A stretch of DNA of 24,349 bases from a virus. Of this stretch, positions 3,585 through 16,768 are shown piece after piece; position 1 is the stretch's first letter, and every line of letters begins with the position of its first letter. The notes below the pieces were generated by a model that was not told the origin of the DNA, searched no databases, and saw only the letters and a program-made list of their open reading frames with translations. Location: IMG/VR virus record IMGVR_UViG_3300025894_000064, positions 1 to 24,349 of that record. One strand, 5' to 3'. Both the position numbers and the translations under genes were made by a program.

Positions 3585-4172
3585 ATGATTGTTGGAATTT
3601 GTGGTCTTATTGGATCAGGCAAAGGAACAGTTGCTGATTTCCTAGTGAACGACAAAGGTTTTACTAAATTAAGTTTTGCAGATAAGTTAAAAGATAGTGT
3701 AGCTACATTATTCGATTGGCCTCGTCAACTACTTGAAGGTGATACTGAAGAAAGTAGACAATGGCGTGAGCAAGAAGATATATTTTGGTCAAAAGAATTA
3801 AGCCAGCCTGTAACTCCACGTTTTGTATTACAACTATACGGAACAGAATGTATGCGAAATGGATTCTATGATGGCATATGGGTTAGTTTTGTTAAAAAGA
3901 AAATACTTGATAATCCTAAACAAAATTTTATAATTCCAGACACCCGCTTTCCTAATGAAATTAATGTATTACATGAACTAGGTGGCGAAGTATGGTGGAT
4001 ACGCAGAGGCGAACTTCCGAGTTGGTGGAATATTGCAGTTATTGGTGAGACTCCGCCTGGAATACATGCAAGTGAATATGCTTGGGCAATGCCTGACGAT
4101 AAGTTTGATAGAGTTGTTTATAACGACGGAACTAAAGAAGAATTGTTTAAAAGTCTTCAATTTGTGGACTAG
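3585..4172 (+). CDS. gp1: Deoxynucleoside monophosphate kinase, T4 gp1-like
   Basis: Phosphorylates dNMPs to dNDPs, feeding the dNTP pool of the replicating phage in the cytoplasm. The N-terminus MIVGICGLIGSGKGTVADFL holds a P-loop at residues 7-15 (GLIGSGKGT). Further matches to the T4 gene 1 family are the LSFADKLKD segment (about 29-37), a Leu-Gln-Leu-Tyr-Gly-Thr-Glu segment near residue 85, and DTRFPNEI near residue 119, the typical dNMP kinase 'D-x-R-F-x-N-E' motif. 195 aa is slightly shorter than T4 gp1 (241 aa). It is driven by its own perfect sigma70 promoter, consistent with an early metabolic gene. Its last 26 bases overlap the convergent Cys-rich gene on the other strand. Confidence 0.88.
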   Translation: MIVGICGLIGSGKGTVADFLVNDKGFTKLSFADKLKDSVATLFDWPRQLLEGDTEESRQWREQEDIFWSKELSQPVTPRFVLQLYGTECMRNGFYDGIWVSFVKKKILDNPKQNFIIPDTRFPNEINVLHELGGEVWWIRRGELPSWWNIAVIGETPPGIHASEYAWAMPDDKFDRVVYNDGTKEELFKSLQFVD

Positions 4173-4497
4173 GCTTCCAAGGTATTCTACTTCCGTATAG
4201 CTCTGCTTTGCAGTTAGCACATATTGTTTTAAGATTAAAACTATCAACGTTTGATAGATTTCCGTCTACATGAAAGACAAACATTTGATTATTTGTCTTT
4301 GCTTTAAAGCCACACTTATCACATCTTTCTTTTTTACGATACCCCATACGATACCACATAGGTGCCGCTGGCTTTAATTTTTTCTTTTTACGGCTACATG
4401 AATCGCACATTTTGCGATAGTAAACTTTGTTGCCCTTACGACTATTAATAGCAACAGGTCTTTCTTCGCATACAGGGCATATTTTGCGTTCGCTCAT
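4147..4497 (-). CDS. Small Cys-rich HNH-like zinc protein
   Basis: 116 residues from ATG at 4497. A longer reading from TTG at 4515 is possible, but a late-promoter box occupies that stretch, so 4497 is preferred. Four CxxC knuckles are visible: C7/C10, C31/C34, C59/C62 and C93/C96. The C-terminal half resembles an HNH core: F-H76-V-D-G-N80, N83, N88-L, then C93-x-x-C96. The residue after the last Cys, normally His in 'C-x-x-C-H', is Lys97, so nuclease activity may be reduced or lost. It could be a small HNH endonuclease or a zinc-binding regulator derived from one. It converges on the dNMP kinase gene with a 26-base overlap. Predicted to be a late, leaderless message. Confidence 0.8.
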   Translation of the reverse strand: MSERKICPVCEERPVAINSRKGNKVYYRKMCDSCSRKKKKLKPAAPMWYRMGYRKKERCDKCGFKAKTNNQMFVFHVDGNLSNVDSFNLKTICANCKAELYGSRIPWKPSPQIEDF

Positions 4498-4502
4498 ATA
4501 GT

Positions 4503-4510
4503 TATTTATA
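4503..4510 (-). promoter_or_regulatory. Exact T4 late promoter core, 5 bases before ATG
   Basis: Minus strand reads TATAAATA at 4510-4503, then ACTAT, then ATG at 4497. In T4 the core is followed by about 5-7 bases before transcription starts, so the mRNA would begin at or very near the ATG. No ribosome site fits between box and ATG. Confidence 0.6.
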
Positions 4511-4560
4511 AGCAAACCTTAATTAAGGGCATCTGTAGAGCATGGTTTTTGGACATAATT

Positions 4561-4569
4561 AATAAATAC
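4561..4569 (+). promoter_or_regulatory. T4-type late promoter box for gp18
   Basis: AATAAATAC at 4561-4569, about 77 bases before the gp18 ATG. The 130-base gap 4516-4645 otherwise holds only an AT-rich leader and an AAGGAAG ribosome site at roughly 4632-4638. Confidence 0.6.
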
Positions 4570-4645
4570 ATTTAAGCAAAAACATTGTGTCCTCACTGAT
4601 ACAGAGTTTTTAAATATTACAATAGTGTAAAAGGAAGATAATAAA

Positions 4646-7600
4646 ATGGCATTAATTTCACCAGGTTTAGAGCTTAGTGTTACCGACGAGAGTGCATACG
4701 TACCAGGTGCCGTCGGAACAGTACCTCTAGTATTCCTAACAACCGAACAAGACAAAATTTATACAGGCACAACGATTGCCTCTGGTACAACTAAAGCTAA
4801 CGCCGCAACATTGCAGGCGTTCACTAGCCAACGTGAAATTGTTACTGCTCTTGGAACTCCGATATTTAAACAGAGCGCCAGCGGTACACCAACACACGGT
4901 TCACCACTAAACGAATACGGCTTAATGGCTTCATATTCCGCACTAGGACTAAGCAATAGACTATATGCTATCCGTGCTGATGTTAACCTTAAAGAGTTAG
5001 AAGCAACAAGCGTTCGACCAATTGGTGACCCAACTAACGGAACAAGTTGGTTAGACTTAGGATTAACTGATTGGGGCATTTACGAATGGGATGCCGCAAC
5101 ATTCCAGTTTACTAAAAAGACTCCAATTATCATTGATATTGATGACGAGATTAACCCAGCCACTCTTTCAGGCGGCAAGTATCCATCAACTGCAATTGGC
5201 AGTAACGGAGACTATGCAGTTGTAACAGTAGGCGGAGAAACAAAAACAGCACAAAATAGATTCTACTACAAAGACTATTTAGGTCGTTGGAGAAGACTAG
5301 GACTTGACGAATGGTACAGGTCTAAGCCAACTATTTCTGCTACAGTTTCAAATCCAACATTAACCACTGCCGAAGCTCTTACAGTCAACGGTGTTACAGT
5401 TACATTAACTGGTACTACAGTAGCTGAACTTAAAACATCATTTGATGGAGCATCCGGACTAACTGGTATTACAACATACGTTGATGGATCTAATAACTTT
5501 AAAATCTTTGCAGACTCAACAGCAACGTCAAATGGTACAGATGCAGACGGAAAGATTGCTATTGCTAACAGCGGTAGCGGAACAATATTAGCCGCACTAG
5601 GAATTACAGCAGGTACATATAATGGACCTGAACTATACCACGGTTCATATGTTGACGTTCCAGCATGGAGAGCATCAGATACAGACCCAAGACCATCAGG
5701 TAGTGTTTGGATTAAAACATCAGTACTAGGTGCTGGTATGAACTTATCACTTAAAAAGTACAATTCAGAAACAGATACATTTACTGCTGAAGCAGTAACA
5801 GTAGCCGCAGACTTTGCTAAAGCAGGATTTGCTCTAGATCCAAATGCAAATACATTTAGTACTCCTTTTGGAACTAAGATTGCATTGTACACAAATAATA
5901 CATCAACAGGTAACATTCTAAGATTGTTCGAAAGAGGTGTACAAGGTAAATCATCAAATACTGCTACACCAACTACACTAGCAGGCGGCGGAACTATTAC
6001 TATCCAAGCAACCAAGAGTGGCTTTGATACATTTTTTGATTACTCACTAACATTCCCAGTAACAGTTACTAACGCAGTTGATTGGGTTACAAGGTTCTCA
6101 GCACTTGGTATTCCTGAAGTTTCAGCAAAAGCAAATGCAGATGATACTATTACAATTACACACGATACTGGTGGAGTTATTACACTTAAAGACGTGTCAG
6201 GTACAATGGTTAGTGGTGCAGGCTTTACAGCGGCAAACTTCTTAGATGACGGCGACGGAGCAATTATCCTAAGTAACTGGAGAGTTTTAGCATACGAAGC
6301 AAGTATTACTAAGCCTTACAAAGAGCCAGCAGACGGTACATATTGGTATTACGGTGATGCAACTACAGTTGACATTATGATTAACGACAACGGTTGGAAA
6401 GGTTATAAGAACCTAAGCAATGATGCACGTGGTTATAATTTATCTAACACTGATCCAAATGGTGTTATTGTTACTGCAAGTAAGCCTGTTACACAAACAG
6501 ACGGAACAGGACTTGTAAGTGGAGATCTTTGGTTAGATACAAGTGATTTAATTAACTATCCAAAACTTTATCGTTACAATGATGCTAGTGAATTTGTTGC
6601 AATTGATGCAACAGATAGATTTAGTCAGAACGGTATTGCTTTTGCTGATGCACGTTGGGATGGAGCAGGAACAACAGATGTTGTTGCCTCAGCAATGCCA
6701 ACAGTAAAGAGTCTTTTAACAAGTGACTACTTAGACTTAGACGCTCCAAACCACAAGTTGTATCCAAGAGGATTACTACTTTGGAACACAAGACGTAGCG
6801 GATTTAATGTTAAGAAGTTTGCTAACAATTACTTTAACGAAAATAGTTTCCCAAATAAAACACTACCTACTATCGTAGATACATGGGTAAGTGTTTCGGG
6901 ACTAATGGATAGCCAGGCACCATTTATGGGTACTGCCGCACAACGCAACATGGTTGTTAAAGCTATGAAATCAGCAGTTGATGCAAATATCCAAATACGT
7001 GAAGAACAGTTTGCGTACAACCTAATTACTGCTCCTGGTTTTCCAGAAGTAATTCCAAATATGGTTGCACTAAACAACGATCGTAAGAATACAGCATTTG
7101 TAATTGGTGACACACCAATGACACTACCAGCAAATAGCATTAGTTTTGCTAACTGGGCAAATAACACAGACGGAACAGGACTTAGCACTGCTGATCCCTA
7201 CCTAGCTGTTTACTACCCACATGGTAAAACAAACGATCTAGCAGGTAACACTATTGTTATGCCAGCAAGTCATATGGCACTACGTACATATATCAGAAAT
7301 GATAATGTAAGTTACCAATGGTTTGCTCCAGCAGGTGTTAGACGTGGACTTATTGATAATGCCGCTGATATTGGTTGGATCAACCCTGTAACAGGTGGAT
7401 TTGTTAGAAATGCTATTAACAACGGTCTACGTGATGCACTTTACGAGAATAGAATTAACCCATTTACAATCCTTCCAGGTGTTGGACTAGTATGTTGGGG
7501 ACAAAAAACTCGTAACCCAGTTGCAAGTTCAATGGATAGAGTTAACGTTGCAAGACTAGTTAACTATATTAGAACGATCCTTGCAAATGTTGGTAACGCA

Positions 7601-14641: not shown

Positions 14642-14659
14642 CTGTAATATAATTGTAAT
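14642..14659 (+). promoter_or_regulatory. Pho-box-like direct repeat upstream of the PiT gene
   Basis: CTGTAAT, four A/T bases, TTGTAAT: two 7-base repeats spaced 11 bases apart, like the PhoB site (CTGTCAT-N4-CTGTCAT). 11 of 14 repeat positions match; both central C's are A. It lies 54 bases before the -10, farther than the usual place, so the call is tentative. Confidence 0.35.
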
Positions 14660-14666
14660 ATTAAAA

Positions 14667-14698
14667 TTTTGTCAAAACAGTAAATAATGTTGACAAAA
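14667..14698 (+). promoter_or_regulatory. Inverted and direct repeats over the PiT gene -35 region
   Basis: Perfect 9-base inverted repeat (TTTTGTCAA at 14667-14675, TTGACAAAA at 14690-14698) that includes the -35. The bases CAAAACAG also recur as a direct repeat at 14673-14680 and 14694-14701, exactly 21 bases apart (two helical turns). This suits an operator, though the right arm is also simply the -35. Confidence 0.4.
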
Positions 14699-14718
14699 CA
14701 GAAAATATAAGTTATACT
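14690..14718 (+). promoter_or_regulatory. sigma70-type promoter for the PiT transporter gene
   Basis: TTGACA at 14690-14695, a 17-base spacer, and TATACT at 14713-14718 (5 of 6). The predicted start is near 14725, leaving a leader of about 30 bases. Confidence 0.85.
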
Positions 14719-14755: not shown

Positions 14756-15721
14756 ATGGATCAATTAACGTTATGGATGGCCTTGGGCTTTCTATTTGCG
14801 GGCTATAGTGTTATAGCAAACGATAGTATACAAACACTAGGTACATGGATTGCTAGTAATAACGAGCGATTTAAATGGACAACAATGTGGGCCGCCGCTT
14901 CGGCGGTTTTATTATGGGCATTGTGGTACGGATGGTATATGAATGGTGGCGACATAAGTTACGGCCGGTTAGATAAGATACCTTTTCAAGAAGTTAAATG
15001 GTATCATGCAATGGCACCATTAGTGCTATTACTATTAACAAGGATAGGCGTACCCGTTAGTACGTCTTTTTTAGTTTTAAGTGCTTTTGCAAGTACATTT
15101 GTATTAGAAAAAATGCTTGTAAAAAGTATAATGGGTTATGCCGTTGCGGCAGTATTTGCATATATGCTTTGGTTTTTTATAGCTAGATGGATAGATGAAA
15201 AGAACAATCCTGTTAAAGAGGAACGTAAAAAGTATTGGCGTATAGCACAATGGGTAAGTGCTGGATTTTTATGGTGGACTTGGCTAGCACATGATATTGC
15301 CAACATAGCAGTATTCTTACCAAGACAAGTTCCTTGGGATATGATGTTAGGTGTTAGTATTATATTTGTAGGCGGACTCGCATTTATGTTCCGTGAAGGC
15401 GGCGGCAAGATACAAGAAATTGTATTAGAAAAAGCACATACTAGATATGTAAGAAGTGCAACTATTATTAATACGGCATACTTTATATGTTTACTTTTCT
15501 TTAAAGAACTAAACAATATTCCAATGTCAACTACATGGGTATTTGTTGGTATACTATGTGGTCGTGAATTAGCAATAGGTACACTTAGTAATGGCGAATA
15601 TAAACTAAAAAATGTATTTCCTCTTATAGGTAGAGATTTCTTAAAAATGTTAGTTGGATTAGGTGCAAGTTTAGGTATTGTATTAACGATACATTACATA
15701 TTAGTACCAAACGGCTTTTGA
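14756..15721 (+). CDS. PiT-family (PHO4) phosphate transporter
   Basis: Integral membrane protein of 321 aa with about nine or ten hydrophobic segments; PiT proteins import phosphate using a cation gradient across the inner membrane. The two-fold PiT signature is visible in both halves. In the first, A-N22-D23-S-I-Q-T-L-G-T matches the 'G-x-N-D-x-x-N-x-x-G-T' motif, followed by G-V-P-V-S-T-S at 98-104 ('P-V-S-T-T-H'). In the second, A-H-D180-I-A-N183-I matches 'N-D-x-A-N', followed by P-M-S-T-T at 256-260 and G-x-L-x-G. The Asn-to-His change (H179) in the second half may alter the substrate. It lies in an accessory island and has its own strong host-type promoter, so it is probably expressed early to aid uptake in phosphate-poor water. 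Substrate and function are inferred. 321 aa is shorter than most bacterial PiTs. Confidence 0.75.
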   Translation: MDQLTLWMALGFLFAGYSVIANDSIQTLGTWIASNNERFKWTTMWAAASAVLLWALWYGWYMNGGDISYGRLDKIPFQEVKWYHAMAPLVLLLLTRIGVPVSTSFLVLSAFASTFVLEKMLVKSIMGYAVAAVFAYMLWFFIARWIDEKNNPVKEERKKYWRIAQWVSAGFLWWTWLAHDIANIAVFLPRQVPWDMMLGVSIIFVGGLAFMFREGGGKIQEIVLEKAHTRYVRSATIINTAYFICLLFFKELNNIPMSTTWVFVGILCGRELAIGTLSNGEYKLKNVFPLIGRDFLKMLVGLGASLGIVLTIHYILVPNGF

Positions 15722-15755
15722 GCTAGTTTTTGGTTAAATACGTTTGTAAAATAAC

Positions 15756-15784
15756 TTGACCAACCGGAAGATCTTTGCTATAAT
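15756..15784 (+). promoter_or_regulatory. sigma70-type promoter for the lipoprotein gene
   Basis: TTGACC at 15756-15761 (5 of 6), a 17-base spacer, and TATAAT at 15779-15784 (perfect). ATG is at 15814, after GAAAGGA. Confidence 0.82.
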
Positions 15785-15813: not shown

Positions 15814-16074
15814 ATGAAAACTACTTTTGGAGTATTACTCACACTAGTACTAGCTTCGGCTTGTACACCACATTATAAAAAAGGTGAAATTGCTTATGAT
15901 TGGGTTGGTTGTCATGTTGTAGGATCAGAAAATCCTAAAAATGGTGAAACTGCTTTTGCTTTTATTACCAGCAACAAACTTAAAGAAGGACAACTACTCT
16001 ATTTTAAACAAGTTGATACCTCAACCGAAGAAAGTCGTGTAGGCAAAGTACAAACGGCTACACCTTGTAAATAA
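15814..16074 (+). CDS. Small putative lipoprotein, 86 aa
   Basis: MKTTFGVLLTLVLASAC is a short positively charged, hydrophobic signal with a lipobox-like A-S-A-C at 14-17, so Cys17 would be lipid-modified after cleavage by signal peptidase II. The mature part is 70 residues with two more Cys (positions 33 and 85) that could form a disulfide. No family recognised. It has its own strong sigma70-type promoter, so it is made early. Phage lipoproteins in the host envelope often block superinfection or DNA entry; this is a possibility by analogy, not shown here. The PiT gene upstream is probably a separate unit. Confidence 0.78.
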   Translation: MKTTFGVLLTLVLASACTPHYKKGEIAYDWVGCHVVGSENPKNGETAFAFITSNKLKEGQLLYFKQVDTSTEESRVGKVQTATPCK

Positions 16075-16077
16075 ATT

Positions 16078-16248
16078 ATGAATAGTAAAAATAATAACCC
16101 CAGCGATACAAAGACAGAAGATGAGTCTGAGTTAGCTGGGGTTAACTCTATGAAATACACTCAACGAGCTTGGGATAGGATTGTTGGTATAGGTAAAGTA
16201 CCAGCTAAGTATGCACTTAATCCTCAAGACGACCAATCTGAAGATTAG
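16078..16248 (+). CDS. Small ORF, 56 aa, possibly real
   Basis: ATG at 16078, three bases after the lipoprotein stop, reading MNSKNNNPSDTKTEDESEL and ending DDQSED. Hydrophilic and acidic with a central helix-like KYTQRAWDRIVGIGK. It includes S-E-L-A-G-V, a partial form of the LAG motif seen elsewhere. No ribosome site is strong. Its 3' end overlaps the convergent HNH gene by 32 bases, and a 10-bp inverted repeat lies inside it. It may be a real gene co-transcribed with the lipoprotein or may be structured RNA; coding is favoured weakly by the uninterrupted frame. Confidence 0.5.
   Translation: MNSKNNNPSDTKTEDESELAGVNSMKYTQRAWDRIVGIGKVPAKYALNPQDDQSED
16095..16144 (+). repeat. 10-bp perfect inverted repeat inside the small ORF
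   Basis: TAACCCCAGC at 16095-16104 pairs perfectly with GCTGGGGTTA at 16135-16144, with a 30-base loop. There is no T-run after it, so it is a poor intrinsic terminator. It could be an mRNA structure ending or protecting the lipoprotein message. Confidence 0.6.
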
Positions 16249-16768
16249 ATTTAGTTAATCCTAAGTAAGGTAACCATTCTTCTCTTAACTTAGTTCTACT
16301 TGGCCTTTTACGCCATTTGTTAACTAGATGATAATATTCAGGACTGAATGGTACTCTTAACGGCTTCTGTATCTTAGATCCTTTTTTCCAGTTGCATGGC
16401 TTACATGCAGTTACACAATTTTCCCATGACATATTTCCTCCAGCACTTTTTGGAATAACATGATCAATTGTTAATTCTTTTTCTTCAAATACTTCTGCAC
16501 AATATTGGCACTGAAACATATCTCGCAAGTACAAGTTTGCACGGCTAAACTTTACTCGTTTCATTGGATTAAAGTATTCGTGTGTTACACATATACTTGG
16601 CACAGGATAGCACACTGTAGGACTACGTACTACTTTGTCTGGGTAGTTTTCAATTACTGTTACTTTGTTTAAAAATACTAGTTTTATTGCCTGTTGCCAG
16701 CCAATAATGCTTAACGGAATAATTGATATTGGCTCGTAGTTTGCATTTAATAAAAGTGTGTCCATCAT
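16217..16768 (-). CDS. HNH endonuclease
   Basis: 183 aa on the minus strand from ATG at 16768 (a second ATG follows immediately). The HNH core is complete: a Zn knuckle C87-x-x-C90, D102-H103 with P-x-S-x-G-G, W115-E-N117, then C122-x-x-C125-N126 and K-K-G. The N-terminal 80 residues (LLLNANYEPISIIPLS...) resemble the conserved extension of the bacterial HNH family with this core. HNH nucleases next to terminase genes are frequent in phages, where some help packaging and others are homing or restriction-like enzymes. The gene lies directly before, and diverges from, the gp17 gene, and converges on the small 56-aa ORF. Homing activity is possible but no intron is seen. Confidence 0.85.
   Translation of the reverse strand: MMDTLLLNANYEPISIIPLSIIGWQQAIKLVFLNKVTVIENYPDKVVRSPTVCYPVPSICVTHEYFNPMKRVKFSRANLYLRDMFQCQYCAEVFEEKELTIDHVIPKSAGGNMSWENCVTACKPCNWKKGSKIQKPLRVPFSPEYYHLVNKWRKRPSRTKLREEWLPYLGLTKSNLQIGRLED

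Follow-up and report, generated by a model that had tools for sequence, protein, structure and literature searches.

A probable Pho box upstream of a PiT-like transporter gene in a T4-like myovirus and its relatives

Positions 14642-14659 of the window (the whole stretch of viral DNA analysed, 24,349 bases) probably form a Pho box, at which the phosphorylated PhoB of the host (PhoB~P) would turn on the phage gene encoding a PiT-like transporter in phosphate shortage. We put the probability of this reading at about 0.8. It is supported by the rank of the site with a PhoB matrix, its conservation, the boxes found at pstS genes and the phasing of the box with a downstream TAAATA element. Within it, PhoB binding, activation rather than repression, the form of RNA polymerase involved, and phosphate as the substrate are the parts that we infer from the sequence.

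Results

The repeat and its match to PhoB sites

The site opens the 114-bp gap 5' of the PiT-like gene and consists of two 7-bp direct repeats with an 11-bp period. The elements of the region are as follows.

14642-14648, plus strand: Pho-box half-site 1, CTGTAAT (from the sequence; scored jointly with half-site 2)
14649-14652, plus strand: A/T spacer ATAA between the half-sites (from the sequence)
14653-14659, plus strand: Pho-box half-site 2, TTGTAAT (from the sequence; kept in L009 and L200/L201)
14664-14670, plus strand: possible degenerate third half-site, AAATTTT, weak (one 11-bp step further; position only)
14667-14675 and 14690-14698, no strand: 9-bp perfect inverted repeat, TTTTGTCAA / TTGACAAAA (from the sequence)
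14681-14686, plus strand: TAAATA, core of an apparent T4-type late promoter and likely the -10 of a Pho promoter (offset from the box conserved)
14690-14718, plus strand: sigma70-like promoter TTGACA-17-TATACT, 11/12 consensus (probable box-independent start)
14756-15721, plus strand: PiT-like transporter gene, 321 aa (weak profile matches)

The initial annotation, made from the letters alone, had described two YTGTAAT 7-mers separated by four A/T bases at an 11-base period, and the sequence CTGTAAT-ATAA-TTGTAAT bears this out. The three mismatches it had counted are correct against strict CTGTCAT repeats; against the degenerate published consensus, CTGTCAT-A(AT)A(TA)-CTGT(CA)A(CT), there are only two. 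The pattern YTGTAAYN4YTGTAAY, which was devised after the site had been seen, occurs with no mismatches at 14642-14659 alone within the window.

A PhoB matrix was built independently of the window sequence, using 43 distinct 18-mers identified by ChIP-chip of PhoB in E. coli (PMC3465305, Table 2). With this E. coli matrix, the site scored 15.5 bits and ranked first among the 48,664 window positions on both strands; the runner-up position scored 12.6 bits. The PhoB-box architecture claimed for the repeat was thus confirmed. When the 114-bp spacer was dinucleotide-shuffled 2000 times, this score was reached once. The repeat exceeds chance expectation, and the earlier concession that it might be a chance AT-rich repeat was not upheld.

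No cyanobacterial Pho box (PyTTAAPyPyT/A repeats, up to three mismatches) coincided with the site in a scan of the window. The 47 window matches to that pattern were below the chance expectation; one of them, at 14658-14676 on the minus strand with three mismatches, overlaps the final two bases of the box. An Rfam search of the site returned no credible family. The candidate third half-site AAATTTT is present at the equivalent place in the alignment with L009.

Conservation and enrichment of the box

Two scans of viral contigs (80 of 171 relatives kept, then 80 of at least 519) provided 134 distinct viral PiT loci. These were clustered by upstream sequence into 77 non-redundant upstreams, leaving out loci with fewer than 100 upstream bases. 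One locus, L001, is the same phage as the window (99.976% over 8495 bases). An orthologous box in the same gene context was found in L009 (approximately 80% DNA identity over this stretch; 11.8 bits) and in L200/L201 (approximately 69-70%; 16.8 bits). The box is the best-conserved block of their alignment, and the remaining spacer has diverged; conservation in related phages, the check originally proposed for the repeat, was thereby found.

A box of at least 13 bits was present within 250 bp upstream of PiT in 16 of the 77 non-redundant viral loci (0.25 expected from elsewhere in the loci), compared with 2 of 478 upstreams of other ORFs in the same loci, and a box of at least 11 bits in 19 of the 77, unrelated contexts included (1.27 expected); the loci are not fully independent, and p-values are therefore indicative. 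A matrix-free count of repeated 7-mers in the 77 upstreams peaked at lag 11 (117 pairs) and lag 22 (53 pairs), with 8-46 pairs at the remaining lags from 7 to 30. With two G/C per 7-mer, the lag test gave no separation, since lag 8 had 20 loci and lag 9 had 16, compared with 19 for lag 11; hairpin repeats may contribute to these G/C-restricted counts. Half-site pairs by period across the 77 loci numbered 17 at 11, 10 at 9, 4-6 at 14-15, and 1-2 at 8, 10, 12 and 13.

No box of at least 11 bits was identified in 58 of the 77 non-redundant viral PiT upstreams. Some PiT genes without a box stand behind other genes, as in L012. In the L002-L004 cluster, the PiT DNA (4001-4963) is 99.4% identical to that of the window (14756-15721), the flanks are unrelated and no box was found in up to 4 kb of upstream sequence; the gene has therefore moved without this promoter. 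The comparison looks like a recent exact gene swap with the promoter left out. For PiT upstreams on bacterial chromosomes, none of 39 carried a site of at least 9 bits on the strand of the gene, and 3 of 39 carried one of at least 11 bits on either strand (0.91 expected).

Promoter elements and helical spacing

The place 10 bp past the window box reads TGTCAA, and there is no good -10 there. In E. coli Pho promoters, the -10 usually lies 10 bp after the 18-mer, and this is not required for binding. The initial annotation had taken TATACT at 14713-14718, 53 bp from the box, as the -10 and had regarded the long distance as a weakness. This objection did not hold, since the x of an xTAAATA element (TAAATA at 14681-14686) lies 20 bp past the box, an offset that is equal in L009, L200, L029, L011 and L018. 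The TTGACA/TATACT pair is not conserved in the L009 alignment, unlike the box-linked TAAATA, and is probably not the promoter. The promoter is thus probably the TAAATA element 20 bp past the box rather than this pair. Further window genes also have strong sigma70-like promoters, for example at 15756-15784. The inverted repeat surrounds the promoter and places TTGACA back to back on both strands; it is not kept in the L009 alignment.

The spacing was analysed in 20 loci with a box of at least 11 bits (the 19 non-redundant loci and L009), using the best box of each. TAAATA was present within 45 bp past the box in 15 of the 20 (2.7 expected). The distance from the box end to the x of xTAAATA in these 15 was 10 bp in six (L013 and L015 counted apart), 20 bp in six and 31-32 bp in three, with no other values. 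Across the relatives, the offsets of 10, 20-21 and 31-32 bp correspond to one, two and three helical turns from the box. The 31-32-bp class also carries TTGACT or TTGACA 17 bp before TATAAA. The p-values for these offsets treat the loci as independent, which is not fully the case, and can be trusted for their direction alone. A first profile of TATAAT matches past the 27 best boxes had shown no clear peak; a signal emerged with TAAATA alone.

Because this TAAATA rule emerged post hoc, it was checked on loci from another scan. Among 32 further non-redundant leader loci, a box of at least 11 bits was present in nine and TAAATA in five of these nine, with first offsets of 20, 21, 20, 20 and 32. 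As a built-in control, 25 sites of at least 12.5 bits elsewhere in the loci were considered, and three had TAAATA within 45 bp: the two pstS boxes of L012, with offsets of 10 and 32, and a site in L078 with an offset of 16.

The late promoters of T4 and KVP40 have been reported as TATAAATA, and those of S-PM2 as NATAAATA (PMC2984593). The window has AGTAAATA at 14679-14686, in which the late-promoter core is intact and the A preceding it is changed to G. The likeness to T4-type late promoters extends to the noncoding concentration of the element (11 of the 21 plus-strand TAAATA in the window lie in the noncoding 8%, several before structural genes) and to the gp55 late-sigma family phrog_234, matched in 3 of 24 PiT-phage records, including that of L195, which has a PiT Pho box. 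The 204- and 236-kb PiT-phage records gave no phrog_234 match, and across the entire window neither TAAATAA nor TATAAATA (one mismatch) was enriched. The Pho-linked form differs from these promoters in reading GTAAATA, as against ATAAATA at several structural genes, and in the predicted box of a host activator in front.

Association with pstS and phoRB genes

The strongest box outside the PiT upstreams of the 77 loci (18.5 bits) lies in L012, before a gene of PstS type (PF12849, E 1.1e-37), in the order box, pstS, ORF, PiT. A scan with this PstS yielded 10 viral loci, eight of them with the gene start, and four of these eight upstreams had a box of at least 13 bits (14.3-18.5 bits). Three viral pstS loci (L233, L235 and L236) have TATAAT exactly 10 bp past a box. 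Phage pstS genes in L080 (2560-2705), L291 and L300 were seen with Pho-box-like repeats, GTAAATA 21 bp on and a leader hairpin of the PiT type; the repeats score 10.3-10.6 bits in L291 and L300.

In one bacterial genome (G006, AG-457-D17; locus L133:2122-4960), a phoR-like gene lies divergent to PiT, together with a PhoB gene whose product matches TIGR02154 above cut-off (321.5 bits). The gap between PiT and phoR contains CTGTAACAAATCTGTAAC, which scores 18.8 bits and is oriented toward phoR. The source of this locus is an alphaproteobacterial single-cell genome. In L131 and L151, a box remains at PiT and the phoRB pair is gone. In five Flavobacteriales-type loci (L092, L100, L105, L110 and L126), both a phoB-like and a phoR-like gene are located upstream of PiT.

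The PstS family TIGR02136 was matched in none of the 12 candidate bacterial genomes, and PF12849 in four of the 12. The PF12849 genes in L228, L229 and L231 had no box of at least 9 bits, and that in L230 had one 9.5-bit site. The pattern CTGTAAYN4YTGTAAY had eight matches in 22 bacterial genomes, three before PiT and the rest inside coding sequence or close to genes of unrelated function. From these matches, no host Pho matrix could be built.

A leader hairpin in relatives

A hairpin of the form GTGAGCG-stem-GGTAAA-stem-CAAGCA precedes the start codon and ends in the ribosome site in 50 of the 77 viral PiT upstreams, and in 90 of the 134 loci (for example L023:3957-4000). It is absent from the window. 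Compensatory changes were observed in all five pairs of the stem among 30 sequences. No Rfam family was matched at cut-off, the freshwater-2 family (RF02980) scoring 17.6 bits against a cut-off of 49.9 in one locus. The leader is a candidate for a new cis-regulatory RNA.

A covariance model of the leader matched 42 times across 54 sources; PiT follows immediately in 41 cases and a pstS gene in one. A pattern scan found at least 121 copies in at least 119 loci, with at least 113 before PiT, at least two before PstS and at least six elsewhere. One of the latter precedes a truncated gene with a PiT-like beginning and, among the matches listed, four precede secreted or barrel-like proteins. The L283 leader gene matches PF24653 (E 3.4e-09), an outer-membrane barrel family of cyanophages. 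Genes that have a leader of the PiT type and encode small secreted or barrel-like proteins were seen at L283:5884-6232, L305:1973-2564 and L270:7635-8215. In L283 and L305, there is an own repeat, weak by the E. coli matrix (6.6-6.7 bits), exactly 10 bp before TTAAATA. The results point to a small phage phosphate regulon in which members other than PiT would be few.

The PiT-like gene, the phage and its host

The protein is a probable transporter. It matched PF01384 at E 0.0028 and 17.1 bits, below the curated cut-off of 33.7, and is therefore named PiT-like. A profile of 15 relatives matched TmPiT (6l85) at E 2.2e-05. A weak sulfate-permease hit was obtained as well, the sulfate permeases belonging to the same superfamily; phosphate is the presumed substrate. 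Of five AlphaFold models of PiT (15-row alignment), one had a mean pLDDT of 70.9 and the other four had values of 40-52; there was no PDB match at E <= 0.001, and the model was set aside. The gene is followed at 15814-16074 by a small lipoprotein-like gene that looks like a moron, with its own strong TTGACC-17-TATAAT promoter (15756-15784) and TTAAATA at 15734. Beside the PiT region, an HNH endonuclease gene (16217-16768, minus strand; PF14279, PF01844) is opposed to its neighbours and is a possible agent of local gene exchange.

The window belongs to a marine T4-like myovirus with a terminase, a tail sheath and a UvsX-like recombinase. The closest terminases, with identities of up to 54%, are encoded by large phages that infect Pseudomonas, Sinorhizobium and Agrobacterium. 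An alphaproteobacterial-type tmRNA was found above the Rfam cut-off in 10 of 40 PiT-bearing viral records, including the record of L009 (also L065:5013-5359), and Caulobacter alone matched among 14 control genomes. PhoB (TIGR02154) is encoded by none of the 40 viral records; among the 12 candidate bacterial genomes, one had a match above cut-off and 11 had some match. The host is likely an alphaproteobacterium, which would supply PhoB. The initial annotation had cited cyanophage pstS as a parallel; the host here is probably not a cyanobacterium.

Discussion

We propose that, when a phosphate-starved host is infected, host PhoB~P would bind at 14642-14659 and would recruit RNA polymerase to the TAAATA promoter (14681), two helical turns downstream. 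The phage PiT would thereby be made at times of phosphate shortage, and the adjoining TTGACA/TATACT promoter would supply box-independent expression. A broader proposal can be put forward tentatively, and at present we hold it to be possible rather than probable: a phage phosphate regulon in which host PhoB, in helical register (10, 20 or 31 bp), would drive gp55-dependent, T4-type late promoters of genes for an outer-membrane barrel, PstS and PiT, with the leader hairpin as a second, post-transcriptional control.

PhoB might instead bind and repress, leaving PiT off in starvation, an alternative that we consider unlikely. It has an alphaproteobacterial precedent in S. meliloti orfA-pit, where a Pho box just upstream of the translation start accompanies repression in phosphate starvation (PMC3131613); pit-type transporters are described as constitutive in E. 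coli and starvation-repressed in S. meliloti, and the window box does stand upstream of a strong sigma70-like promoter. The two cases share a Pho box, a predicted one in the phage, at a pit-type gene. They differ in placement: the window box is 96 bp from the translation start and upstream of the promoter elements, which is an activator position, and the same form of promoter precedes pstS, a starvation gene.

It is rather improbable that the box serves a host response regulator of the OmpR family other than PhoB. Direct repeats with an 11-bp period are common among sites of this family, several OmpR-type regulators are encoded in the candidate bacterial genomes, and TIGR02154 is matched above cut-off in one of 12 there, though in 11 of 12 at some level. 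Against this, the scoring matrix comes from PhoB itself, the boxes mark pstS and PiT, and an 18.8-bit box precedes the phoR-phoB pair divergent from PiT. The box could similarly be a relic, with the TTGACA-17-TATACT promoter alone driving PiT. That promoter matches 11/12 of the consensus and has strong counterparts at other window genes (15756-15784), but L009 retains the box and TAAATA without it, and L200 retains both at an unchanged 20-bp offset; we regard a relic as an improbable explanation as well. A functionless, chance AT-rich repeat, for which the AT-rich spacer, the box-less majority of relatives (58 of 77) and the near-identical, box-less PiT of L002-L004 could be cited, is very improbable given the matrix rank and shuffles, the orthologous conservation with the excess at PiT (16 of 77 versus 2 of 478) and the helical phasing of box and TAAATA.

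The preferred reading, activation by host PhoB, has parallels in the E. coli PhoB promoters (phoA, pstS, phoB, ugpB, phnC and phoE). These share with the phage sites the two 7-bp direct repeats, the 11-bp period, the A/T spacer and a high ChIP-matrix score, and the viral pstS genes with TATAAT 10 bp past the box have the canonical spacing. However, the phage half-sites are CTGTAAT/C where those of E. coli are CTGTCAT, and in the window 20 bp, rather than 10, separate the box from the probable -10, a late-type TAAATA.

Cyanophages already provide examples of phage genes controlled by the PhoB of the host, namely pstS of P-SSM2 and genes of the Synechococcus virus S-PM2d with PhoB gel shifts (PMC10976474). 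The resemblance is that of phage auxiliary genes under host PhoBR, here predicted from sequence; the present case differs in that the window site is not of the PyTTAAPyPyT/A form, in PiT rather than pstS alone being the gene concerned, and in a host that is probably alphaproteobacterial. A phage-encoded pit has also been described as an auxiliary metabolic gene in soil viruses (PMC10987575), whereas the contigs described here are aquatic and carry a predicted regulatory site; looking through the main text of that paper did not turn up the word 'promoter'. Within the open-access library and the terms searched, nothing emerged about Pho boxes preceding PiT genes in phages or about an action of PhoB at phage late promoters.

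Here, the signature extends to uncultivated aquatic myoviruses, which form a large and probably alphaproteobacterial group, and to a PiT-like transporter. The fixed helical spacing raises the question of whether a host response regulator can drive phage late transcription. Furthermore, a box followed by TAAATA at 10, 20-21 or 31-32 bp provides a rule for finding candidates for phosphate-responsive genes in viral metagenomes, which would be useful where Pho-box prediction alone in phage genomes has been called unreliable (PMC10976474).
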